Part shown: one piece after another, positions 12,883 through 27,770 of the stretch
How positions within the stretch are numbered: position 1 is the stretch's first letter
Layout of the letters: each line of letters begins with the position of its first letter
NCBI GenBank assembly: GCA_963575745.1
Contig: CAUYUJ010009458.1
Span: 378,750 to 442,749 of the forward strand
Length of the DNA stretch: 64,000 nt
Direction of reading: 5' to 3'
Source of the DNA: Prorocentrum cordatum
Taxonomy: Eukaryota > Sar > Dinophyceae > Prorocentrales > Prorocentraceae
The notes under the pieces: model-generated
The model's input: the letters and a program-made list of their open reading frames with translations, nothing else
Databases searched by the model: none
What the model was told of the DNA's origin: nothing
Made by a program: the position numbers and the translations under genes

Positions 12883-13734
12883 CCCTGAGATCCGACGCTC
12901 CGACAAAAATTGGAGCGGCGGGATTTTAGTAGTTTTCCGCCTCCGGGGGCCCTCGCCGGGCCTCCGGAGCGTCAAAAAACGATGCAGGACGAAAAGCCGG
13001 TCCGGGGGAAGTGGTCCGGACCTCCAGGGCCCGCGCATCGAAAAAATTGGAGCAGCCGGATTTCTGGGGAGGCCTTGTCGGAGCCATCATTGGCTATCTT
13101 GGACGCTCCAATCGATCGCGGTGTGCCCCGACCAGGTCCAGGGGGCAGGGGGCAGGGGGAGGGGCAAACCCCTCCCCGAAGGGGAACACGCGCTAGACCG
13201 CTCACGCCAAGAGGGCTGGTGTGGTTCGAAGAGCACGTTCGCAGACCTTTTTTAAACACCCATGTTGCGAAAGCATGTGCTCATATATTATATATCTACA
13301 CATATGTGTGTGCGTGTGTGTGTGTGTGCTTCGAGCACTCGGTGTTGAAATCCTCGCGAAACCCAAGATTGCGGAAGGATTTCGGCATGCACGCCCGACG
13401 GCACGCGCGTGTGCATTTCGTCCGATTTGTTGCGAGGGATTTTTGAAAATTCAGAAATATGTCTGAAGGGGTGTGCCCCCATCATGTTTTGTGCAAGGGG
13501 TTCGGGGGGTCGACACCAGCTGGGCTGGGGCGGTATGATTTCATAGTTAGAACTAACGAGGGTGCAGAAGCACATGTAATTTGTACATCCCTGGGGTGGA
13601 CAAGTCTGGCCTCGGGAGGGTGGTGGATCCTAATTATTTTGGAAAGGAGATTGTATGGGCGGCGACGAGGCAGCAGACACAGACATAGAATGACAGAGCG
13701 ATGCTAGGCAAGGCTTATCACTGCCATTCCAAGC
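12883..13734. other. No gene seen
   Basis: Mixed GC-rich sequence with a GT microsatellite near 13303-13329 and a GGCATGCACGCCCGACGGCA word related to the CG-rich near-palindrome at 9617. Nothing else was recognised. Confidence 0.4.
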
Positions 13735-14115
13735 AACGCAGAGCAACTCAAAGCGAGGCACAACAACGCGATGCAAAGTAATGTAACGCAACGCAACGCA
13801 ATTCAAGGCAAGGCAACCAACGCAATACAACGCAATGCAAAGCCATGCGAAGCAATCCAAAGCAATACAAGGCAATGCAAACCAATACAAAGCCTCAGCA
13901 ACGCACAGCTATGTAAAGCAATGTAGCACAATGCAAGTCAAAGCACAACAACGCGACGCAAGGCCATGCAAAGCAACGCAAAGCAGCGCAAAGCAAGGCA
14001 AAGCAACACATTGCAAATATGTAATGTACTGAAAAGCAAGACAAAGCAACCCAATGTAAATCAATACCAAGCAATGCATCGCATCGCAAACCAATGCCAA
14101 GCAATGCAAAACACC
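13735..14115. repeat. Degenerate GCAATGCAAA minisatellite
   Basis: About 380 bp built from 5-10 bp words such as GCAAC, GCAATGCAA, AAGGCAA and ACGCAA, strongly purine-biased on this strand. A shorter, more diverged array of the same kind lies at about 45540-45760. It directly precedes minisatellite M1. Confidence 0.8.
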
Positions 14116-15510: not shown

Positions 15511-15852
15511 TCTAGAGGAGCAGGATTTTTTTGTTTGGATTGCAAGGCTGATGAAGCACAGCGCCTGTCCGCAATAAAAAGCAGCGCGACGCTGGCAGAA
15601 TATTAGCGGGAGCTAAAAAGTTCTGCACGGGCGCTAAGTCAAACAGCCACCACCAGTTCAGGGCAGTTAAAGCAATAGAGAAAAGCAGGGCAGTCCTGCT
15701 GGTACTGGTTGCCGACAACTCCCTGGCGACCGGTCAAGTAAGGGTGAGCAGTGACAGAAGGCGGCGAGCTCGCAACTCCCTGGCATCGCCTAGCCTTCAC
15801 AGTACAAGAGAGGAGAGTACAAACTTCAAAGCAAGGAGACGGGGGTAGTCGT
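15511..15852. other. No gene seen
   Basis: Contains GCAATAAAAAGC (about 15571), which resembles a polyadenylation signal but has no gene attached. Repeated short words ACTCCCTGGC occur at 15718 and 15774. Confidence 0.35.
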
Positions 15853-16310
15853 GCAAAGTATCTGCAAGCTCGCCCGTGGGAGACCACGACAGGCACGAGT
15901 GTCGAAATCGTGTCGGAGCTTGCAGGAACCAGAGCACAACCAACTTACAGTATGAACTGCGAGTCAGAGCAACTGGCAACCAAGAACGCAGAGCGTGGGA
16001 TCCACACCTGTGAGATAAGTGGCTGGGGCATCTGACAACAATGACCATACACAGGAGTCTCATTCCTGGGCCAGCTGCACTCGAGCTGGGACGCAGGGAG
16101 GATGCCAAGCGGAGAGTTGGGATCCCCTCCGAGAGCGGCCCTTGCGATGGCATCGGTATGCACGTGCGGCACAACATGGGACTGGCCGAGCGTATCCACA
16201 GACTGGCAAGTACTGCTCTGGTATCGGAGACCGATCGAGTCTGAGAAAGAGAGACAAAGGTCAGATCAGCAAGCTGGGTCAAGGCTAGCAGACGAAACAG
16301 CTCCCGACAT
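15853..16310 (-). pseudogene. Mosaic of non-LTR element fragments
   Basis: Seven short blocks match pieces of the large minus-strand element, with the intervening sequence missing. Reading on the minus strand they correspond to about 23660-23527 (start of ORF2), 25240-25206 (ORF1 zinc finger), 25003-24961, 24830-24762, 23366-23337, 23293-23259 and 23085-23045 (RNase H region). Apart from the first block the order follows the element. A 161-codon frame (about 16282-15797) reads across all of them and keeps LCRTC, LLCMVIV, VLWFLQAPT and GELADT, although one block is out of its original frame. It is probably a rearranged, deleted derivative copy, not a gene. Confidence 0.7.
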
Positions 16311-16820
16311 CAAACTCACCTCCTCCCCAATTCTGCAACCCTGCAAGTGATGCATGCGGGCAAGCGGCGGCGGCGATCAGGTGCATGAGCACCTGGCGAG
16401 CGGCGGCGCCCCCGGGAGAACACTCGGGGGTCCGGTGCCACACGCAACGGGTGTGTGGTTAGCGACGGACTACGCTCACCGGGCCCCCTGACCGCTGCCC
16501 CCCGCGGGCACAGGTGTGAAGATACAACAGTAGTTGCAAGCGGGGGCACCTCTGAGGAAGGCGACCGCGCCGAGAGAGAGGGCGGGCGGCGCATGCAGGC
16601 AGGCCGCGGACGAGAGCGAGCGAGGGAAGCAGGCTGCCGCTCTCTCTGCATTCCCTAACCCACCTCCTCCCAGTCTCTCGCTCGCACGCGCGGGCGGCGG
16701 GGCCGCAGGCGGCGGCGGCGGGCGGCGGGGAAGCAGAGGGGCGGCGGGGCCGCATGGGCGGCCAGTGCCGCACGCGGGGCGGTTCATCTGTCCTCACCTC
16801 CAAAGTCCTCCATACCCCAT
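16311..16820. other. Possible 3' untranslated end of the non-LTR element
   Basis: GC-rich sequence between the end of the methyltransferase-like ORF and the mosaic. No poly(A), tandem tail or target duplication that would fix the 3' end of the element was recognised. Confidence 0.35.
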
Positions 16821-18863
16821 TCAACCCACCTCCTCGTTCAAATGGCCCGTGCAAGGCTTAAGAAGTAAGTGAAGCTGCACGGGGGAGCCATCAAGCTCAA
16901 AGAGCATTCCAATGATCCTGCGCCCAATCCTGGGCGGAACACGGGGCTCGAAAAACTGGTCGCTGCTCGGGGGCCGGGGGATCCAGTAGTCCAGCATGCG
17001 ATTCCAGGGCGCGACCTCGAGCAGACGGGCTCTCTGGCGTGCAGCACGGCGCTCACGAGCGATGGCACGATTGCGCGCAATGCGCGCACGCAGATCATCC
17101 GAGAGGGGCAGGGGAGCAGGGGGAGAAGGCACGGGGGAACAGGAAGGTGGGGAAGCAGCAAAAGCCAGGGTATCGGCATACTCTTGCTCCTCGTCGGCCT
17201 CCGCAGGGCCCGCTGGACGCGGCTCGGCTGTAGGGTCGAGCACGCACTCGGGGGCGGGAGGCGAAGGGGGAGTGGGGGGCAGGAAGCGCTCTCGCTCGGG
17301 ATCGACCCGAGTGGCGCTCCTCCCGTTGAGCGCGAAGTCGGGGGCCCAACCCTCCTCAAGTCCTAGATAGGGATCCCACTCCACGTAAAACGTTGCCAGG
17401 GACCCCCGGAGCTCAGCCTCCCCCTCACACATGTCAAGGGGCAGCGTCCCGTCGTCACAACTGTCGTGCATGTGAGTCACAGCGTCCACGATACTATGTG
17501 CCAGTGCACGACACAGGTCGGGCGGATAAGTTTTCTTCTTAGCCGTCCTCCATTCGTCACGTTCACTGTCAAAGCCCATAAGAACACTGTGTGCATTCCT
17601 GCCGTGCGAGCAGCGTCCGCGTCCAGGGGTATCCATCAAGCGTCCGTGCAGCGTGCTCATCCGAAGACTGAGTATGCGCGTCGGCGCACGTGCCACCTGT
17701 CCATGCTCGCACTGGTCGAAATCCGAAACCGTAGCGGCTGGCGACGACATGACGGCTCGTAAGGGCGGGCACAAGAACGAACTGACCGAGGCCTGCCGCC
17801 AACTGGCGGGCATCGGGTGCTCCATCCAGCAAGACGTGCCGACGAGCATGTGCACCCCAAACAATTCGATCATGGCCCCGAGCAGCTCATTGCCCACTCG
17901 GAGTTGCATCATCTGTCTAGGAGTGACAAGTAGTTTACCCCAAAACTCGTCATGCGACCGCAGTGGTGGGGGGCCGCCATCATCAGCCCAACGTATAGCA
18001 GACCAAGTCTCACAGGGGGGACCCCCACCCGAGAGAACGACGCGTCCGGAGCGTATGTGCTCCTTCCATGTATCTAGGGTCTTCCTGCACATCATGTCAC
18101 CCATCACAGCATCAATCGCAATATCTATGGACAAGACAATGATGGCGAAGTTGGGGAGGTAGTGGGACCATTCGACACAAGACTGAATGTCACCGGGACG
18201 GCGGCGGCCACGGTAAAGGTTAAGCGCAAAATACTCAGTGCGCCTTATGGCAGCGGGCATGGGGTCGGCGGCATAACCAGTGTAGTTGTCAGTAAGGAAC
18301 ATACGCGTAGGGTATCGCTCGCTCTGGTGGGGCGGCCACTGAACATGGGCCGCATGATGTTCAGCTGGCTGCGGTGGTAAGGGCTGTAGCATCTGTACGG
18401 CCTCCGGTGTTCGGGCAGAGTCGGACTGCAACAGTAGGTATCTAGCATCATCCTGAGTCATTCGTGTCAGCATACTAGTGGCCAGCTCCGTAAGGGGGCC
18501 GGCGGCCTTCGTAGTAGGTACGACAACATGACGACGAGGGATGGGGACTTTGCCAGACGGGACTCGCCTGGCTGTGGCGTCCGGGGCAGGCCCGCTCAGG
18601 TGGTAGCTGGCCTCGTACGTGTCAGTGGGTACTAGCTGTAGGGTATCTGGGTCTAGCCGTCCTGAGACCGTAAGAATCGCGGCACATAGACATCTAGGGG
18701 CGTCGAGAGCTAGGTGATCAATCAGGTGGCGTCGGTCGTAGAATACAGATAAGCAGGTAACGCACTGCCCGTCCGTGCGTGCATATCCCCTTGCAGTAGT
18801 GGTAAGCTGCCGGTGTAACCGAGACACATGTGTTCTTAAGCTACTGTGCCGTACCATGGGCAT
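16821..18863 (-). CDS. Zinc-finger and C5-methyltransferase-like protein
   Basis: 680 codons, uninterrupted. Residues 1-60 hold zinc-finger-like motifs: HSSLRTHVSRLH at 6-17, and CVTC at 34-37 with later His and Cys. Residues about 208-460 look like a cytosine-5 methyltransferase fold. NLYRGRRRPGDIQ (215-227) is in the place of motif I. SIDI (245-248) may correspond to motif II. GPPCETWS (281-288) resembles motif IV with its catalytic Cys, MEHP (347-350) sits where ENV is expected, and TYPPDLCRALAHSI (445-458) resembles motif X. The C-terminal 200 residues are Pro/Ala-rich, then basic. The ORF probably continues the reverse-transcriptase frame, because a frameshift falls inside the first zinc finger. 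If active it could methylate element or host DNA; that is inference. Similarity outside the motifs is weak, so another Rossmann-type enzyme is possible. Confidence 0.65.
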   Translation of the reverse strand: MPMVRHSSLRTHVSRLHRQLTTTARGYARTDGQCVTCLSVFYDRRHLIDHLALDAPRCLCAAILTVSGRLDPDTLQLVPTDTYEASYHLSGPAPDATARRVPSGKVPIPRRHVVVPTTKAAGPLTELATSMLTRMTQDDARYLLLQSDSARTPEAVQMLQPLPPQPAEHHAAHVQWPPHQSERYPTRMFLTDNYTGYAADPMPAAIRRTEYFALNLYRGRRRPGDIQSCVEWSHYLPNFAIIVLSIDIAIDAVMGDMMCRKTLDTWKEHIRSGRVVLSGGGPPCETWSAIRWADDGGPPPLRSHDEFWGKLLVTPRQMMQLRVGNELLGAMIELFGVHMLVGTSCWMEHPMPASWRQASVSSFLCPPLRAVMSSPAATVSDFDQCEHGQVARAPTRILSLRMSTLHGRLMDTPGRGRCSHGRNAHSVLMGFDSERDEWRTAKKKTYPPDLCRALAHSIVDAVTHMHDSCDDGTLPLDMCEGEAELRGSLATFYVEWDPYLGLEEGWAPDFALNGRSATRVDPERERFLPPTPPSPPAPECVLDPTAEPRPAGPAEADEEQEYADTLAFAASPPSCSPVPSPPAPLPLSDDLRARIARNRAIARERRAARQRARLLEVAPWNRMLDYWIPRPPSSDQFFEPRVPPRIGRRIIGMLFELDGSPVQLHLLLKPCTGHLNEEVG
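17484..18242 (-). other. C5-MTase-like domain region
   Basis: The part of the 680-residue ORF bearing the ordered motifs. The PPCETWS codons lie at about 18000-18020, the MEHP codons at about 17814-17825 and the YPPDLCRALA codons at about 17502-17531. The catalytic Cys of motif IV and the Glu of motif VI are both present. A clear FxGxG motif I is not visible; its place is taken by LYRGRRRPGD. Target-recognition sequence cannot be assigned. Confidence 0.55.
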
Positions 18864-21175
18864 TCGTACCTTTGCACCGCTGCGGGGACAGGGGGGTCAA
18901 TCAGAAGGCCCCGCTCGTCTGTGTAGACCCGGGGGGGCACGCCTGCTGGCATGGCATCAGCGAAAAACGTCTTCTCAACTTGCTCGGCAAGGACATTGCG
19001 CGAGTGCTGTTGGGCAGACGCATAGGCGGCAGCACGGACGAGGCGCTTCCACCCAGGCTGGCTCTTGCGCACGAGGATCTCCCAGGGCCCCAAGTCGTCA
19101 GCGGGGGGGGCAGCTCGGCGCACACTTTCACCGTGATACGTAGCCACTCCAGGTCAGCAAACAAAAGTCCGAGTCCCGATCGAGCACGCTGGTCGGGGCG
19201 CGCGGCTTCCCATTCTGCTGCAAGTAGGGCAAAGGCAAGCTGAGGACCACTGTGGTGCAGCGAGCCAAACAACCGAAGACGTGCGCACCGCAACGAAATC
19301 TCTGGCGTGGGTCGATGCAACCTGGCCAGAACGAGGGCATCCGAGACCTGGGACCCAGATTCCTGAAAGCGCACTCGAGCTGCAGCTCTGTAAACCTGCA
19401 GTACAGAGCTGTGGAGCAGTCGTGATTCCCCTTGCGTAAGAGCGGGCCATGCACCCGCGTTGCAAAGACGTCCCGAGAGCACCAGGCTGTCGGCCAGCGT
19501 TAGCCGTAAGTCCTCGTCCAGGTTGTCCGTGGCGAATACTCGCCTGCGGAGGACCTGGAGGGACGAGGCCGTGGTCGAAGTCCGATATTTGATCTCCGGT
19601 GTCAGGGAGCCACGCGACACAAAAACATACCCAAGATGCACGTAGTTGGGTACAGGGGCCCGAAGGGTGCCTGAAAGTTCGGAGGTCCCACGTGCATGCC
19701 CGCCCTGCTGGTGCCAAACCTCATGTCGCGCTGCCTTGGCCCCAGGTCCCCGTAAATTGAGGAGAGCAGCGGTTTTGGTGGCGCCGATATTAAGCAGATG
19801 CCCCCTCCTGGCAAAGGTGTCGGAAACTATGACTAGTATCTTGCATAAAGCAGGGTGCACATCGCATGCTGGCATCATCACAACCACTGTACCGTCGTCG
19901 GCGTATGCTATATCCGCCAGTGAGGTGACATGTATGGCTGTGCCTGCCAATAGTGCTGTGAGGCTTCTGCCGTCGTGTGCAACCAGTGTGGTGGTAAGAC
20001 CTTCAGCTTCTAGTGCCGTCCGTACATCGCGCATGCAGTCAGCCATTTGCAGCTCGTAGAGGACATCTGCGAGCGGCTGTCCCGGGAATACCGAGCGTTG
20101 GGGAAGTGAAACTTGCCGAGACCCCTCGCAAACAAACCAGGGGGCCTGGTAACACTGTGTAACCTGTGCGACGACGTGCGGGTCCACTGTAGAGCGTTCC
20201 AAGGAGGCCCCATGGTCGCGTAACCGTGCGGCCAATTCGTGCATGGCCGCGGGGGGCAGGCCAGCTGCTTTCACGATATGTGCGATCGAGTCGTCGTCGA
20301 GGGTAGAGCGAATGAGGAACTCACGAACGGCTCGATAAAACGCCTGTGTCACGTCCAGAAACAAGCCACCAAGAGCCAGATTGCGAGCCTGAGCCAGTGC
20401 CTGTGCCAGTCACAAACAGTACGATGCATGTGTCGTGCCGCGCCCTGGCAATCCTCCAAACTGGGTCTCGCCAGCCTCCTGGGTAAGCCAGGGAATTAGC
20501 TGAGCCCGCAGACAACGCCGCGAAGCCTTGCCAATCTGGGAAGAGACCAGGATGGACCTGGAGCTGGAGCACTGGGAGGGGTCAGCCTGGCCAGCCTTGA
20601 TCAGGTCCCTGTAAAATCCCCCTTTCCATTGCAGTGGTTCAGCCAACGTAAGGGAGCATTTCAGCTGCAGAGCGTAATAGTACTCAGCCAAGACCGACGC
20701 GTGTGCCCGCAAGAGCCCTCCTGCGATGCCGTCGCACCCCGCAGCGGATCGCTTGCTTTGACGGCAAGACCGTTGGAAGTCCGCCAGGGACGGCAAAGAT
20801 GCAAGGGTGACCGGCTGGGAGGACATCCGGGCGTACGGGTCACGATAAAAGTAGCCTCGAGAGTGACGAGCTTCGACGGCAGGTATGGTGGCGGCAAATT
20901 CCAGGTCTGCAAAGTGCTGCTGCCACCTCTGTGCTACCTGTTCGTCACTTGCGATCGGTTGGCCCCCAACGTCGCGCAGCATCGGCAAAACACGATCATG
21001 ACGGCGACGTTTCGACCCAGCCCCGATCCGACGCAAAGCTGCAAAAGCCTCCGTAAACTGCCTGCGATCCCATGCTACTCTGACACCTCTGGCCACTGCT
21101 GCAACATGTCTCGCAGAGTCATGACTGGTAGACTGCTGTATGACGTACGATGCGGCACGTAAAACAAATCATACT
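18836..21175 (-). pseudogene. Reverse transcriptase region of ORF2, broken
   Basis: Two open stretches in one frame (21096-20410 and 20364-18901) are separated by a single in-frame TGA after THASYCL. Together they give a non-LTR reverse transcriptase with these motifs: GCDGIAGGLL, FGGLPGRGTTHA, LFLDVTQAFY with the first catalytic Asp (about 20355), PGQPLADVLYE, and YADD (19894-19905) with the catalytic Asp pair. A frame change at the run of eight C near 19107 moves the C-terminus into a 103-codon frame (19147-18836), which carries WKRLVRAAAYASAQQHS and VYTDERGLLIDPP. The frame then changes again into the methyltransferase-like ORF. The upstream junction with the endonuclease frame (about 21260-21100) is also shifted. 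The catalytic residues survive but the chain cannot be made. Confidence 0.8.
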
Positions 21176-21263
21176 GGTGGCCCAGAAACAACCAAGCCAT
21201 TGTCGGGCCCGAGACAGTACGGTGTCCAGGGCAGGGGGCGATGTCGACGCTGGGCCGGGTGGG

Positions 21264-22771
21264 TCACCGACCGAGGTTAGCAAGTCGGGCAGCCCAGGGC
21301 GAGTAGAGTAATTCTAGAGTCGGCAGCCGACCGAGCCTCCATAGTCCAGTTAAGTGGTCACTTGTGAAAGGCGGGAGTGTTGTACGGCCAGTAGGGCCGC
21401 GCAAAGGGGTCGCAAACGCACGAGCGGCATCGTGGGCAGCATGTCCAGCATATGCTACGGCATAGCAAGCATCGGCAACCAAACCTCGCGCAGGACCATC
21501 ACGCAAGGCATAGCGCCACTGTAACCTGCGGTACCAAAACCACTCGTCAGCACTGGCACTATCTGTGGCCCAAGCAGTAAAAACACAAGCTAGTAGCAGC
21601 TGGGAGAGCCGTCGTCGCATTGTGCGCAACCACCTCCGACCGTCGGTCCTGCTGTCCATTAGTGCAAGTGTGTGTTCCGAAATCCAGTTCTGTCGGGGAC
21701 GCCGTCCAGCTGGGGGCTGTCTGGGGGGGAACGCCTCCTCAACGGCCCGCTTCAGCTGATCATTAAGATACTGGGCATGGTCATCTGGGTGCATGTCGAA
21801 TTTGGGCTGCGGAATCGCACGCAAGGCATCGTGAAAGATCTGACACCGCACAGGGTCGCCATACTTGTCGGGGTCGTGAACAAGTTTGGGCCAGCGGGAG
21901 GCGAGGGGCACTGCTGTGGCAGGGGGCACCTGCACACCAGCCGTCACAACAAAGTGGTCGTCATTCCGAAGGAAAAGGTACATATCCATTTCCACCCCTT
22001 GCCGAGGAACGTTCATGAGCCGATCGAGCGGGACCGTCACATAATCAATGCGGCGTCGGGGAACTTCACCACACGAGCGAGGAGGAAGCCAATCACCGTG
22101 GACCCCAGAGTGAGAGTCCAAAAGCGTGGCGGGCAAGCACTGTTTAGTCGTCCGCAGAAAGTCGTGAAAACGCAAGCCAGCAAGGGTTTCAGACTCGGGC
22201 GCCACGGGGCCGACGTGCTCTGACTGTACCGATCCAACTGTAGCAGTGGCATGGAGCAAGCACTAGAGAGGAGCGGGTTGGGCACGACTGCTAACTGCAT
22301 CCTCCATCTGTGACCATCACTGATCAATCGCTGTGGCCGTGTAGCGTGAGTGCGGCGCATGCCCGACAAGCACCTCCATGCCCAAACCCGGTGCGCGAAT
22401 ACTGACAAGCATGTGACGTGGTGAATATGACAGTACGCGCACGTGTCGTCGCTCTAGCCCGCGTCCGGGCATATATTCACGCTCCATGTTGACCCACAAA
22501 GCGACCCCAGGACGTCCCTGCGGCTCGGCTGCAGACGTGAGCACACAAAAGTTACCAGCGTTCGTCCATGCATTACGGCGTACACGCGTCTCTAGGGTAC
22601 CCACAGTAAATAGGCCATGATGTGCAAACTGCGCCGCCAACGCCATCATCCGTCCGGGTATGTCGAGACCAGTAGCATCCTGATAACGACACCTGAGACG
22701 ACTCCCTCCTCTCCGATTTTTCGTCCTGCGCGGCCGGAGAGTAAGGACATTTGCCACGGCTAGTCGCAGGA
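21264..22771 (-). pseudogene. Apurinic-type endonuclease domain of ORF2, broken
   Basis: An endonuclease/exonuclease/phosphatase-type domain that would nick the target site. Seen in order are the N-terminal strand VANVLTLRP with the conserved Asn, FTVGTLETR with the metal-binding Glu, a GHAPHS segment, RIDYVTV with the Asp, and DDHFVV with the terminal Asp-His. Two in-frame stops (TGA at about 22319-22317 and TAG at about 22274-22272) interrupt it without changing frame. The LxxDxNA motif is replaced by LLHATAT, so the Asp and Asn are both lost. This copy is therefore dead for two independent reasons. Confidence 0.8.
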
Positions 22772-23819
22772 CGGCATGGCCAGAGGCTGTGGCAGGATCT
22801 CGAGGGACGCTCGAGCTTTCCTGTCCGCGTCCAGCGTCGGGCGACAAGAAGGCCAGTGAGGGGCACATGAGAGGGGGCAGTATGGGAGGCAGGGGATGCA
22901 TGCCAACTTTCGGGAACTGCCCTGAACTGGCGTGGTGGTCGGAGGCCAGCCACATCCACGGTGCAGCGGCTGTAGCTGCATGCAGTGGCGCCCACGGCTG
23001 AAAGGTCGGCTCCACCGACGGCGCAATACCCATAGAGGCCAGTCGTGCAATAGTATCTGCAAGCTCGTTCCGTGGGTCTGCACAATGTCCACGTACATGC
23101 AACCATCCCAGACGTACTTGTGTTCTCAGTAGCTTGAGGACCCCATCGAGCAACTGTGGTAGGTCCCCGCATGAGCCGTACCGTACCCCCCCCGCAGCCG
23201 CCTGTACCACCATGAGATTATCCGTATATACTGTGATAGGGTATCGTCGATGTTGTGTCGGAGCTTGCAGGAACCAGAGCACAACCCACAGCGCGGCTTG
23301 AAATTCGGCAGCATCGGAGACACTAGTAACCTGATCGCAGAGTGTGGGATCCACACCTGTGAGATATCCTTCGACCCGATATCGACCGTCTGACGACACT
23401 GCACACAGCACCCATGCCCACGAAGGTGGCCCGCCCAGCAGAGCATGTTTCGAGCCTCCTGACCCATCGGCATGAACCTCGTAGCGCACGATTTCCGAAT
23501 CCAGGGCGGGGGGGTGAGCTCCGAGGGTATCCAGAAACTGGCAAGTACTGCTATGTAGATATGGTTTAAAAAGACAGGAATCGGATGACTGATCGAGACC
23601 GAGAAAGAGAGGTGTGAGAGACGATTCAGCAGGCCAGGGCTCGGCTAGCAGGCGAAAGAGCTCCTGGCAGTCGGGAAGAGGGCAAGGCGGGCGCTCGTCC
23701 ACGGGGTCCTCCCGTGGCGGCGCCTGGGGGGCGGCCAGCAAAATGCGGGCCGCTGGCAGGCCGCGCGGCGCCTGCTCCGGGGCAGGCGTCTCAGGTGCCG
23801 CGGCCTGCGGGGGTGACAT
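22317..23819 (-). pseudogene. ORF2 N-terminal part: RNase H plus endonuclease start
   Basis: About 500 codons from the ATG that overlaps the ORF1 stop. Residues 1-60 are Pro/Ala-rich. Residues about 111-261 are a complete RNase H1-type domain: VHADGSGG with the first Asp, AAEFQAALWV with the Glu, TVYTDNLMVV with the second Asp, and LHVRGHCADPRNELADT with the His and last Asp. The endonuclease begins near residue 350. The frame ends at a premature TGA in the endonuclease. All RNase H catalytic residues are kept. Confidence 0.8.
23037..23489 (-). other. RNase H domain placed ahead of endonuclease
   Basis: About 150 residues with the D-E-D-H-D signature in order and the usual spacing. Expected role: removing RNA from the RNA-DNA hybrid during reverse transcription. 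Its position at the N-terminus of ORF2 is the unusual point. Fragments of it (VLWFLQAPT, NELADT) recur in the mosaic at 15853-16310. Confidence 0.8.
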
Positions 23820-23821
23820 CA
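23817..23821 (-). promoter_or_regulatory. TGATG stop-start overlap of ORF1 and ORF2
   Basis: On the minus strand the sequence reads GGGGTGATGTCACCCC. TGA ends ORF1, and ATG one base later starts ORF2 in a different frame. Such TAATG/TGATG overlaps serve as termination-reinitiation sites in some non-LTR elements (shown for the UAAUG of SART1). Here the function is inferred from the arrangement. Confidence 0.7.
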
Positions 23822-25738
23822 CCCCGGCGACGACTCAGGGCTGTCTTCTTCTCCGCGAGCAGGGCGTACGGGCGGGATGCGGCTGGCCAGCATGCGCCCT
23901 GGGCGCAGCGGTGGCCCCTCTCGTCCCTTGGGTGAGGGGGCGCGAGGGTCGTCCACGTGCCCAGGCGGAGCGACCGCCGCGCGCCCACGATGCGAGGCCG
24001 CCTCTTGCTGCCGCTGGGCAGCATCCTGCTGTCGCTGCATGGCCTGCTGCAGGCCCTGCTGCCCTGGCGGCCTCGCAGCTCGCTTGGCATCCCTGGCCGC
24101 CTGGCGCGCCTCCTTGGCCGACTGCTTGCGCGCCGCCTCCAGCCGTCGCGCCTCCTCAGGCGTCGGGCTGCGGCCCTCGCGCGCCGCGGCCTCGGCGGCT
24201 GCCTCCATGCCCGCAGGCGGGGCCTCCGCGGCGGGCGGGCGGCGCTGGGCGGCGGTGGCATCCGCAGCGGCCGCGGGGCCAGGCGGCGGCGCGGCGGGCC
24301 CGGCCACGGGGCCAGGCGCGTCGGGCGCGGGCGCGGCGCCGTGGCTGCCCGCGGCCAGAGCGGTCTGCAGCGAGGCCAGGACGCTGGACATCTTCGCCAT
24401 CTCCGCCGCCAGCTGCAGCTGCCCCGCCTGCAGCTGCGCGACCACGGCGACGGCAGGCGGCTCCTGCGCGGGCGGCGTCGCAGGCTGCGACGCACCAGCA
24501 GCGGGCGACATGGCCTCGTCGGCGCCGCCGACCTCGACGAAGCTTCCATCCTCAGACTTGGCGGCCGGCGTCATCTCCTCGAGCTGCTCCAGCAGCAGCT
24601 GCGCACGAGCGAGCTCCTGCTCCCGCTGCTGCGCCTTCTCCTCCAAGTGAGTCAGCTCATCTCGGCAGGCGACGACGGCCGACTGAGCCTTCTCCAACTT
24701 CGTCTGCGCTCGAGCCACGAACGCACGTTGACGGTCGCAGCGCACTCCCGGGCTGCGTGCAACAATGATCATACACAGGAGGGCAGCGTGCTCGGCTTCC
24801 TGGGCCTCGAGCTGGGCCGGCTGCACTCCGAGGTCTCGGGCCGCGCGAATGTGCTGGCCTGTCGCCGCCGCCATCGGCTTCAGGCTCTTGCGGTGGGCGG
24901 CCAGCTCCTTCTCCGAGGACGGCGGCTCCACCCAGCACTGGTGCTTGCGAACAACCTCGGGGAGCGCAGGGAGGATGCCAAGTGGGGAGCTGGCCCCCCC
25001 CTCCGAGAGCACCCCGTCCTCGTCGACGTCGTCCTCGAAGCCGACGTGGCGCTCATCCTCGCGGCGGCGGCTGCGGCGGCGGCGGCTCGACGTGGTCCGA
25101 GTCGCACTGGCCGCGCGCTCATGGCCAGCACTGGCCGCGCGGCGCCGCTCTCGCCGCTCACCCGTGTGCAGCTCGGGGGCTGGAGCGTCGGCGCGCGGCC
25201 CATGCGGCGGCATCGGCATGCGCGTGCGGCACAGCAGATCGTTGACTGCATTCGCCATGCCGCAGGTCGGGCACCACCAGCACTGCGGCGGGGGGGGCGG
25301 CACAGCGCCCAGCCAGGGCTGCAGGCCGGGCTGCAGGCCGACGCCCTTGCCCAGGCCAGGCACGCCTGCACCGCCCTTGGCGCCGGCTCCGCCCTTGGCG
25401 CCGCCTCCAGCGCAGCCCCGGCACCCCGCAGGGCCCTTGCCACCGCCACCAGCACCGCCCTTGCCCATCATGGGGTCGGCGCTGTGGTGGGCGGCCAGGC
25501 GAGCGCGGGCGGCCTGCACGCGGCGCTCCTCCGGGAGCGCGAGCCGCGCGCGGGCGCGCGCGACGCCGCGCCTGGCCGCGCAGCCAGCGAGCCCGGCGAT
25601 GCCAGGCCGGGTCAGGGCGCGCTCGGCGCCGCCCGCGGGGCGTGACGCCTGGGCGCGGTGCAGGCGCGCGGCGCGCGCGGCACGCCTGGCAGGCGGCGCA
25701 CGGCGCGCGGTGCGCGCGGCACGGCTAGCGCGCAGCAC
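23819..25738 (-). CDS. ORF1 protein with RanBP2-like zinc finger
   Basis: Up to 639 codons from 25738. That first codon is not ATG, and the upstream part is Ala/Arg low complexity. The first good ATG pair is at about 25471-25466 (MMGKGG), giving roughly 550 residues. After a Gly/Lys-rich start comes WWCPTCGMANAVNDLLCRTR. It has the RanBP2-type spacing W-x-C-x2-C-x3-N-x6-C-x2-C, except that the last Cys is Arg. An Arg/Ser-rich linker, an acidic patch and a likely coiled coil (KLEKAQSAVV to LLLEQLEEM) follow. The C-terminal half is Ala/Pro/Gln-rich. ORF1 proteins of non-LTR elements bind element RNA, and that is the expected role. The frame is open throughout and ends in the TGATG overlap with ORF2. 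Confidence 0.7.
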   Translation of the reverse strand: MLRASRAARTARRAPPARRAARAARLHRAQASRPAGGAERALTRPGIAGLAGCAARRGVARARARLALPEERRVQAARARLAAHHSADPMMGKGGAGGGGKGPAGCRGCAGGGAKGGAGAKGGAGVPGLGKGVGLQPGLQPWLGAVPPPPPQCWWCPTCGMANAVNDLLCRTRMPMPPHGPRADAPAPELHTGERRERRRAASAGHERAASATRTTSSRRRRSRRREDERHVGFEDDVDEDGVLSEGGASSPLGILPALPEVVRKHQCWVEPPSSEKELAAHRKSLKPMAAATGQHIRAARDLGVQPAQLEAQEAEHAALLCMIIVARSPGVRCDRQRAFVARAQTKLEKAQSAVVACRDELTHLEEKAQQREQELARAQLLLEQLEEMTPAAKSEDGSFVEVGGADEAMSPAAGASQPATPPAQEPPAVAVVAQLQAGQLQLAAEMAKMSSVLASLQTALAAGSHGAAPAPDAPGPVAGPAAPPPGPAAAADATAAQRRPPAAEAPPAGMEAAAEAAAREGRSPTPEEARRLEAARKQSAKEARQAARDAKRAARPPGQQGLQQAMQRQQDAAQRQQEAASHRGRAAVAPPGHVDDPRAPSPKGREGPPLRPGRMLASRIPPVRPARGEEDSPESSPG

Positions 25739-26005
25739 GCCAGGCGGGCGTGGCGGCCAGCGCGTATGGCAGCTGTCCTGCGGCAGTCGAGGTTCGCAGC
25801 GCGCGGTACCCTGTACCGAGGCGCTGCACCCAAAACCTCGAGCCGGGACGGCGGCTTGAGGAGCAGGAGGCAGGGAGGATAGGGGAGGGGGCAGCTTGTT
25901 CGGCGGCTTGGGGGGGGATCCAGGCGCGCTCTGGGGTGAGGGGGCCCTCCACTCCCCCCGTCCTCCGTCTACTTGCCCTGTGCCTCCTCTTTCTCCTCCG
26001 CCGAC
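25739..26005. other. Upstream flank of the non-LTR element
   Basis: GC-rich sequence that may hold the 5' untranslated region of the element. No conserved landmark was recognised. Confidence 0.35.
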
Positions 26006-26082: not shown

Positions 26083-26414
26083 CCCGTTCGAGGCAGGAGC
26101 TTAATTAGTCTGCTCTCCTGATCCTCCTCCCTCCTCCCTGCAAGCCGAGGGTGGCGCTAGGACAGTCGGCCTCCTCCTCCTCCTCCTCCTCCCTCCTCCT
26201 CCTCCTCCCTCCGCCGTTCTCCCTCATCCATCCTCCGCCGTTCTCCTCCATCATCATCCTTCCCCCTCGTCCTTTACACGCTTCCCCGAAACATCCCGTG
26301 CTGGGCCGTTGCGTTCCTCCTCCCTCGATCGTACTTCTCCGCGTCTCCTGATTCACTGGCTTAAACCACACCTCCGACCCCTTGGGGAGGCAGTAATCGT
26401 CCCCCGCGTGACCT

Positions 26415-27770
26415 GTCCGGACAGCCCGTGAGGCCCCTCTAGACACGTTTTGGAGCCCTCTTAGGACCGTCCTGCCGTTCCCCCGGACCGTTGCTATAGT
26501 TTCTGGGGCTTTCGCGGGGCGCCTGAAGGCCGTCGTGGAGCCTTTTGGAGAGTCTCGTGGGGCGCCAGAGGTCGATCTTGGAGGTTTACTGGGCCGTTGT
26601 GGGCCTCGTGGAAGCCCAAGAAGCGAATATGCTGAAAATGCACGTTTTCCTACGGGAATGGTACGGTTTTTGCTTCTGGAGGCCTGCTTGGAGCGCCTCG
26701 TGGTCGCGTATGCAAACGTCGTGGACTCCCATGGGGCTGTCTGGAGGCAATCTTGGGCGGTTTGGACCAAATCGTCCCCCACGTGGGCCGTCCGGACAGC
26801 CTTTGGGAGCCCTCTTGGCCCGTTTTGGAGCCCTTTTGTCGGGGGTGGACAGAACCCCAAACAGTGACACGTCGATTAGAGACTTGTCCGTTTTCGGTTC
26901 TCGAGAGGGCGCCGTGGCCGTTATTTTCCAGGCTTGCGCCCGCCAGGTTTGGGCCTCAGGTCGTTTTCACTAAACCACGTTTTACTAAAGGGGGATCTGT
27001 CCATCCCCGATAATTTTGGGACCGTCCTGCGGCTTTCCTGCCGTTGCTATGATTTCTGGAGCCTTCGTGGATCGCCCAGAAGCCGTCTTGGAGCCTTTTT
27101 GGGAGCCTCTTCGGGTGACGGGGGTCGATCTTGGAGGTTTATTGGGCCGTTGTGGGCTTCGTGAAAGCCCAAGAAGCGAATGTGCTGAAAATGTACGCTT
27201 TACCTAGGGAATTGGACGGCCCTTGCTTTTGGAGGTCTTCCTGGGGCGCCTCGTGGTCGCGTATGCAAACGTCGTGGACTCCCATGGGGCCGTGACCGAA
27301 TGGACAGCCTTTGGGGGCCCTCTTGCCCCGTTTCGGAGCCCTCTTGTGACCGTCCTGCGGCTTTCCTAAGCCGTTGCTATGGTTTCTGGGGCCTTCGTGG
27401 ATCGCCCGGACGCCGCCTTGCAGCCTTTTTGGGAGCCTCTTGGGCTGGCGAGGGTCGATCTTGGATCTTGGAGGATTCTTGGGCCGTTTTGCGCCGCGTG
27501 GAATCCGAATGGGCGAGTGTGGTGAAAATGTACGTTTCCCCTTAAGAAATGAAATGATTTTTGCTAATGGAGGGCCTCTTTGGGGCGCCTCGTAATATTG
27601 TTTCAAACGTCTTGGGGACTTATGGAGCCGTGTGGAGGCAATCTTCGGCGTTTTGGGGCCATCTTTCGTCGATTCGTAGCTCTCTTGGACCGTTCCGGGA
27701 ACCTTTGGAACCTTTTTGGCCCGTTTTGGGGCGTCCTGAGGCTCCAAGTGTGCGGATGACGGATTTGCCC
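26415..27770. repeat. 12-bp-periodic satellite with long units, L3
   Basis: Three long units begin near 26545, 27095 and 27435. Each carries GTCGATCTTGGAGG, TGGGCCGTTNTG, an AAGCGAAT(A/G)TGCTGAAAATG-type insert, GGGGCGCCTCGT and CAAACGTC. The first two also share GCGTATGCAAACGTCGTGGA exactly. Between the inserts the sequence is the usual CTTGGAGCC satellite. No coding function is supported. Confidence 0.75.

Follow-up and report, generated by a model that had tools for sequence, protein, structure and literature searches.

RNase H leads and a predicted C5-methyltransferase fold closes the polyprotein of a dinoflagellate LINE

The element and its domain order

The window analysed here is a 64,000-nucleotide (nt) stretch of the Prorocentrum cordatum genome (assembly GCA_963575745.1, contig CAUYUJ010009458.1, positions 378,750 to 442,749), and its minus strand, to which all feature coordinates below refer, carries an APE-type retrotransposon without long terminal repeats (non-LTR), that is, a long interspersed nuclear element (LINE). 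The whole insertion spans 15526..25857, about 10.3 kb, with ends common to other copies. Its second open reading frame (ORF2) is one polyprotein of about 2.3 thousand amino acids (aa), in the order RNase H, APE endonuclease (EN), reverse transcriptase (RT), C2H2-finger region and C5-methyltransferase-fold domain (MTase). The original prediction, made from the window alone, had placed these domains between 25738 and 16821; the element is present but longer, and it has an ORF1 upstream.

The MTase frame was compared with the genome of the species itself (a 4.128-Gb assembly of 21,875 contigs), which yielded at least 65 matching rows, the window being one of them (64 of 148,523 candidates were scored). 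In four of five 10-kb stretches fetched (L046-L049) the full domain order was found in one open frame, of 2331, 2192, 2381 and 2190 aa, respectively; the fifth (L050) is interrupted upstream by an N gap. L046-L048 are 97-99% alike, and L049 is 73-74% alike to them. The predicted motifs were all located in the window, and these matches and open copies show that they are not there by chance; RNase H and MTase, sharing one uninterrupted frame in L046-L049, belong to one element in the order claimed. That this layout exists and recurs in other copies is as good as certain. An open frame does not imply activity, since L047 reads FLGVVQAF in the RT where L046 and L048 read FLDVVQAF, and L049 lacks histidines of the first finger. 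The window copy itself is dead and broken: its ORF2 is split over frames 2, 1 and 2 with stops and frame changes, the first C2H2 finger shows damage, and a number of residues for catalysis or zinc binding are altered, the EN Asp-x-Asn motif reading HAT.

The insertion is flanked by a target-site duplication (TSD), the 11-mer TCCTGCTCCTC, which occurs exactly twice in the window, once at each end (5' copy, 25868-25858; 3' copy, 15525-15515). The 5' end coincides within 1-2 nt with that of a copy on contig C3653 (L055). The 3' end, at about 15534, is common to the window (15515-15536) and six close copies (L017, L018, L019, L021, L022 and L023), in which a short A-run and then unrelated flanks follow it; a seventh copy, that of C3653 (L056), has the same 3' ending. 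A similar terminal repeat in the C3653 copy sits inside a pyrimidine tract and is therefore weaker evidence for a TSD. As L055 was the only one of five upstream stretches to contain the 5' part (L051 matches 174 nt of ORF2 and L053 a 181-nt piece outside the element, while neither L052 nor L054 matches), the 5' end is supported by two copies and by the TSD. One insertion contains all five domains, and no terminal repeats of the LTR kind were seen among the best 20 of the 26 repeat families of the window.

ORF1 runs from its first Met (MMGKGG) to its stop over 23819..25471. It holds a finger, WWCPTCGMANAVNDLLCRTR (25279-25220), which we take to be RanBP2-like; its WWCxxC...CxxC pattern is found in L046-L049, where the end reads RAC or RTC, and its last Cys is lost in the window copy. 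The ORF1 stop overlaps the ORF2 start in TGATG (23817..23821; GGGGTGATG), as it also does in L046-L049. Pfam searches of the ORF1 frames and of frames from the divergent families described below gave no domain above the cut-off.

ORF2 begins with a type 1 RNase H (23028..23483), recognised by its fold and by the D-E-D-H-D motifs HADGSG (23474-23457), AAEFQA (23312-23295), VYTDN (23231-23217), VRGHC (23096-23082) and NELADT (23069-23052); the His is kept in an RGH, LGH or HGH motif. A related database protein, P0022, passes the Pfam RNase H cut-off (35.3 vs 25.8 bits) and can be read on into the EN and the start of the RT. The EN (21945..22763, with stops between 22319 and 22263) was assigned by motifs and by alignment with canonical LINE endonucleases, and it precedes the RT. 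Its motifs are LAVANVLTL (22763-22737), TLETR (22598-22584), RRRIDY (22058-22041) and DDH (21962-21954), the DxN motif being changed in the window copy; N, E, DxN, RRIDY and DDH are all present in L046 and L049, whereas L047 has GDH and L048 RRIDH. The relative P0023 scores 24.3 bits against Exo_endo_phos, just under the cut-off of 24.5. The RT (19100..21168, with a stop at 20412-20410) shows a fingers motif (20565-20524), FLDVTQAF (20361-20338), PGQPLAD (20085-20065) and YADD (19905-19894), and is 59.6% identical to database protein P0001 over 438 aa. An EN-RT profile of the family aligned with five canonical LINE loci from this genome over 731 columns (hhalign, E 1.1e-5, probability 82); PDB sequences yielded only chance matches to the EN and RT alignments.

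Behind the RT lies the C2H2-finger region (18723..18896), damaged in the window copy and assigned from sub-threshold C2H2 matches in relatives (L046, L048 and P0001; none in L049). The last domain (17454..18239; model residues 89-350) was delimited by motifs and predicted structure. Its motifs are GRRRPGD (18209-18189), SIDIAID (18131-18111), GGGPPCETWS (18029-18000), MEHP (17825-17814), QCEHGQVARAPT (17714-17679) and TYPPDLC (17531-17511); the register of its motif IV Cys and motif VI Glu with HhaI was taken from the order of the motifs.

Divergent families and selection

When P0022, covering RNase H, EN and RT, was compared with the same genome, at least 69 matching rows were obtained (50 of 7,512 candidates were scored). 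Eighteen of them run as a single match from query residue 79 or earlier to 883 or later, at 26-30% identity, and one of the 18 has an internal stop. Two of these loci, C19044 and C3836, were read in their downstream parts: each stays in the same frame across the RT, C2H2-like fingers and an MTase that contains GGPPCETWS and EHP, and their identity to P0001 is 30-33% in the MTase and 24-26% in the RT. In these divergent families, then, the RNase H-EN-RT half appears to be followed by this same tail, the join of the two halves being taken from the match coordinates. Database proteins, by reading, span the domain joins as well: P0001 extends from the RT palm to the MTase, P0005 and P0010 from the RT end through the fingers to the MTase, P0004 covers the post-RT part, fingers and MTase, and P0021-P0023 contain RNase H (in P0023, its end) followed by EN.

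By reading, database protein P0006 carries the same MTase-like domain (GGPPCATVS, EQP) in a DIRS-like pol, and the domain family therefore seems not to be confined to one type of retroelement. EukProt has, under the label Pyramimonas, a fragment (P0018) in which MEHPMPASWR...QCEHGQSARAPT stands nearly as in the window, reflecting either contamination or a wider host range. The 3' regions of L025 and L026 (C20735 and C13323) are identical: L047, the same copy as L025, matches L026 at 100% over 1055 nt, and the two give the same figures against L024 over 1457 columns, which may be due to segmental duplication or duplicate assembly.

Selection was examined by Nei-Gojobori pN and omega on the open copies and on MTase loci, in pairs that are not independent. 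Between L046 and L049, for which dS is high or saturated, pN was 0.141 for RNase H, 0.157 for EN, 0.140 for RT and 0.108 for MTase. For the pairs L046/L048 and L047/L048, omega was 0.076 and 0.035 in the MTase, 0.048 and 0.067 in the RT, 0.135 and 0.167 in the EN and 0.224 and 0.195 in the RNase H, with linkers reaching up to 0.755. An unbroken MTase frame was found in 25 of 30 loci, giving 300 pairs, of which 127 fell into dS bins and the rest were saturated or outside. The median omega was 0.642 at dS below 0.02 (4 pairs), 0.203 at 0.02-0.06 (33), 0.096 at 0.06-0.15 (61), 0.08 at 0.15-0.4 (27) and 0.053 at 1-3 (2). These sequence comparisons point to strong purifying selection on the tail, and to a layout that is actively kept by evolution.

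The tail: fold, possible function and known systems

Structure comparison of the predicted tail model returned the C5-methyltransferase fold in all 50 of the 50 entries among the matches listed, and the model indicates that the tail has this fold. All 11 alignment rows carry the motif IV Cys, as do all 12 proteins P0001-P0012; the motif VI Glu is nearly invariant, with EHP or EQP in 10 of the 12. In its fold, the PPC Cys and a motif-VI-like Glu, the tail resembles the C5 DNA methyltransferases DNMT3, HhaI and HaeIII, from which it differs in divergent motifs I and VIII. Several results weigh against an active enzyme that methylates the element. Model quality is moderate (mean pLDDT 66.3); motif I reads FxGRRRxGD where the bacterial and phage set has FxGxGG; there is no QxRxR motif, QCxxGxxxRxPT standing instead; and the match of the MTase profile to bacterial and phage C5 methyltransferases is not significant (probability 1.4, E 0.036, 35 columns round motif IV, with thin profiles). 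Pfam searches of the window frames, the relatives and the open ORF2s gave nothing above the cut-off in the element and no PF00145, and likewise for P0001-P0012. A PDB sequence search with the MTase alignment gave a weak HaeIII match at motif IV (E 1.8), ranked below two chance matches; that with P0001 gave chance or finger matches only, and P0001 found no match in viral contigs. The methyltransferase-like character that the original prediction had assigned to the tail is thus borne out by structure and not by Pfam or profile comparison.

To the same side belongs the base composition. No CpG depletion was observed in the element, whose observed/expected ratio (o/e) is 0.933 (ORF2 0.893, 3' untranslated region (UTR) 0.825) against 0.899 and 0.969 in the flanks; values were 0.912-0.949 for the ORF2 of L046-L049 and 0.913-1.076 for eight other LINE loci. 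Nor was there a CpG-specific excess of C-to-T changes in the two families tested, CT exceeding CG in both: per site, changes at CA, CC, CG and CT were 0.0213, 0.0347, 0.0319 and 0.0399 in eight window-family loci, and 0.0078, 0.0065, 0.0095 and 0.0118 in 15 L046-family loci. TpG/CpA o/e in L046-L049 was 1.21-1.26, figures that have no comparator. The earlier suggestion that the element methylates its own DNA copy accordingly finds no backing in CpG. CG depletion is reported, in the available text, for SymbioLINE-Dnmt (PMC5890265); since none is seen here, either the element differs from SymbioLINE-Dnmt in its CG behaviour, or host methylation leaves no trace.

The combined explanation that we favour, and consider reasonably probable, is a LINE polyprotein that moves by target-primed reverse transcription and whose tail, in a putative catalytic role, methylates the element's own nucleic acid. 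The endonuclease would nick the target and the RT would copy the element RNA from the nick; the built-in RNase H would strip the RNA from the hybrid and so make a second strand possible. The fingers may hold the tail on the complex, where it would transfer a methyl group to cytosine of the new cDNA, the hybrid or the RNA, and this methylation may protect the element's nucleic acid or mark it as self. More tentatively, the order RNase H-APE-RT-C2H2-C5-MTase could define an old LINE clade, with a Pfam-invisible C5-MTase branch shared with a second retroelement type (that of P0006), which would methylate the new copy while still on the RT.

The tail could instead act on RNA, in the manner of Dnmt2, and mark its own transcript or ribonucleoprotein rather than DNA; we regard this as unlikely, and its place behind RT and fingers fits DNA equally well, while the fold does not discriminate. 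It has also to be asked whether the tail has kept its fold as a nucleic-acid- or S-adenosylmethionine-binding module and is no methyltransferase, as the divergent motif I, the missing QxRxR and the non-significant profile match would suggest. Against such a module stand the PPC Cys and EHP Glu, nearly invariant across divergent families, and the strong purifying selection on the tail, and we consider it improbable. That RNase H or MTase came from a neighbouring element, joined by chance or misassembly, could be supposed from the broken frame of the window copy and from its 3' UTR, which repeats pieces of RNase H and ORF1. Such a chimera was rejected as exceedingly improbable in view of the single uninterrupted frames of L046-L049, the TSD round the whole element, the same layout in two divergent families and the database proteins that span the joins (P0001, P0004, P0005, P0010 and P0021-P0023).

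I-group and Ingi-type LINEs carry RNase H after the RT, and Ingi has a C-terminal C2H2 finger. The present element shares APE EN, RT and RNase H with them, but in L046-L049 the RNase H lies ahead of the EN and is therefore not C-terminal to the RT as in the I group. LINE clades carrying RNase H are catalogued in PMC4640811, in whose available text RNase H upstream of RT was called, in 2015, unique to the oomycete element Utopia, which is of the restriction-like endonuclease type. Utopia likewise has RNase H preceding RT; its endonuclease, however, is C-terminal and restriction-like, and its RNase H has R for H, whereas here an APE EN separates RNase H from RT and the H is kept; the available part of the Utopia description mentions no MTase (PMC4640811). 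According to the available text of de Mendoza et al. 2018 (PMC5890265), methyltransferases of dinoflagellate LINEs, detected with PF00145, mostly occupy an ORF that precedes the RT, and those of DIRS elements lie in Pol. Like SymbioLINE-Dnmt, our element is a LINE of a dinoflagellate, has TSDs and carries a cytosine-methyltransferase domain on which purifying selection acts. It differs in that its MTase sits at the C-terminus of the RT polyprotein, after the RT and the C2H2 region of ORF2, is not detected by Pfam, and belongs to an element with a short A-run at its end and RNase H leading ORF2, whereas SymbioLINE-Dnmt is PF00145-detectable and without poly-A (PMC5890265). As in SymbioDIRS-Dnmt3, one ORF holds both the RT and a methyltransferase domain, but that element has split LTRs and a tyrosine recombinase (PMC5890265); here there are an APE EN and a TSD, no tyrosine recombinase was found in the scanned window frames or ORF2s, and no terminal repeats among the repeat families listed. 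Searches of the open-licence PMC literature showed no LINE with RNase H before APE and none with MTase after RT, which is not proof of absence, and the available part of PMC6338049 holds nothing on this layout; the architecture is distinct, as predicted, in the sense that its order is absent from the literature searched.

In the LINE polyprotein described here, RNase H stands ahead of the polymerase instead of behind it, and the C5-methyltransferase fold takes up a further position within LINEs, in one chain with the RT. Because Pfam misses the tail, counts of methyltransferases in the mobile DNA of dinoflagellates that are based on PF00145 may be too low. The reason for a retrotransposon to methylate becomes directly testable, as the tail is strongly selected and enzyme and polymerase are one molecule.

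The 3' untranslated region and neighbouring repeats

The 3' UTR (15526..16820), delimited by comparison of copies, ends in GCAATCC and an A-rich run. At 15847-16304, parts of the coding sequence for RNase H and ORF1 of the element itself are present a second time, on the same strand. Such duplicates, in the window and in L046-L049, are about 72-100% identical and 25-233 nt long, and their order differs between families; those of L049 run collinear to a large part of the RNase H region and the sequence after it. The element is closely preceded, at 26395-27732, by imperfect direct repeats of about 30-250 nt, and downstream of it a long run of short degenerate GCAA-type repeats lies at 13699-14109.
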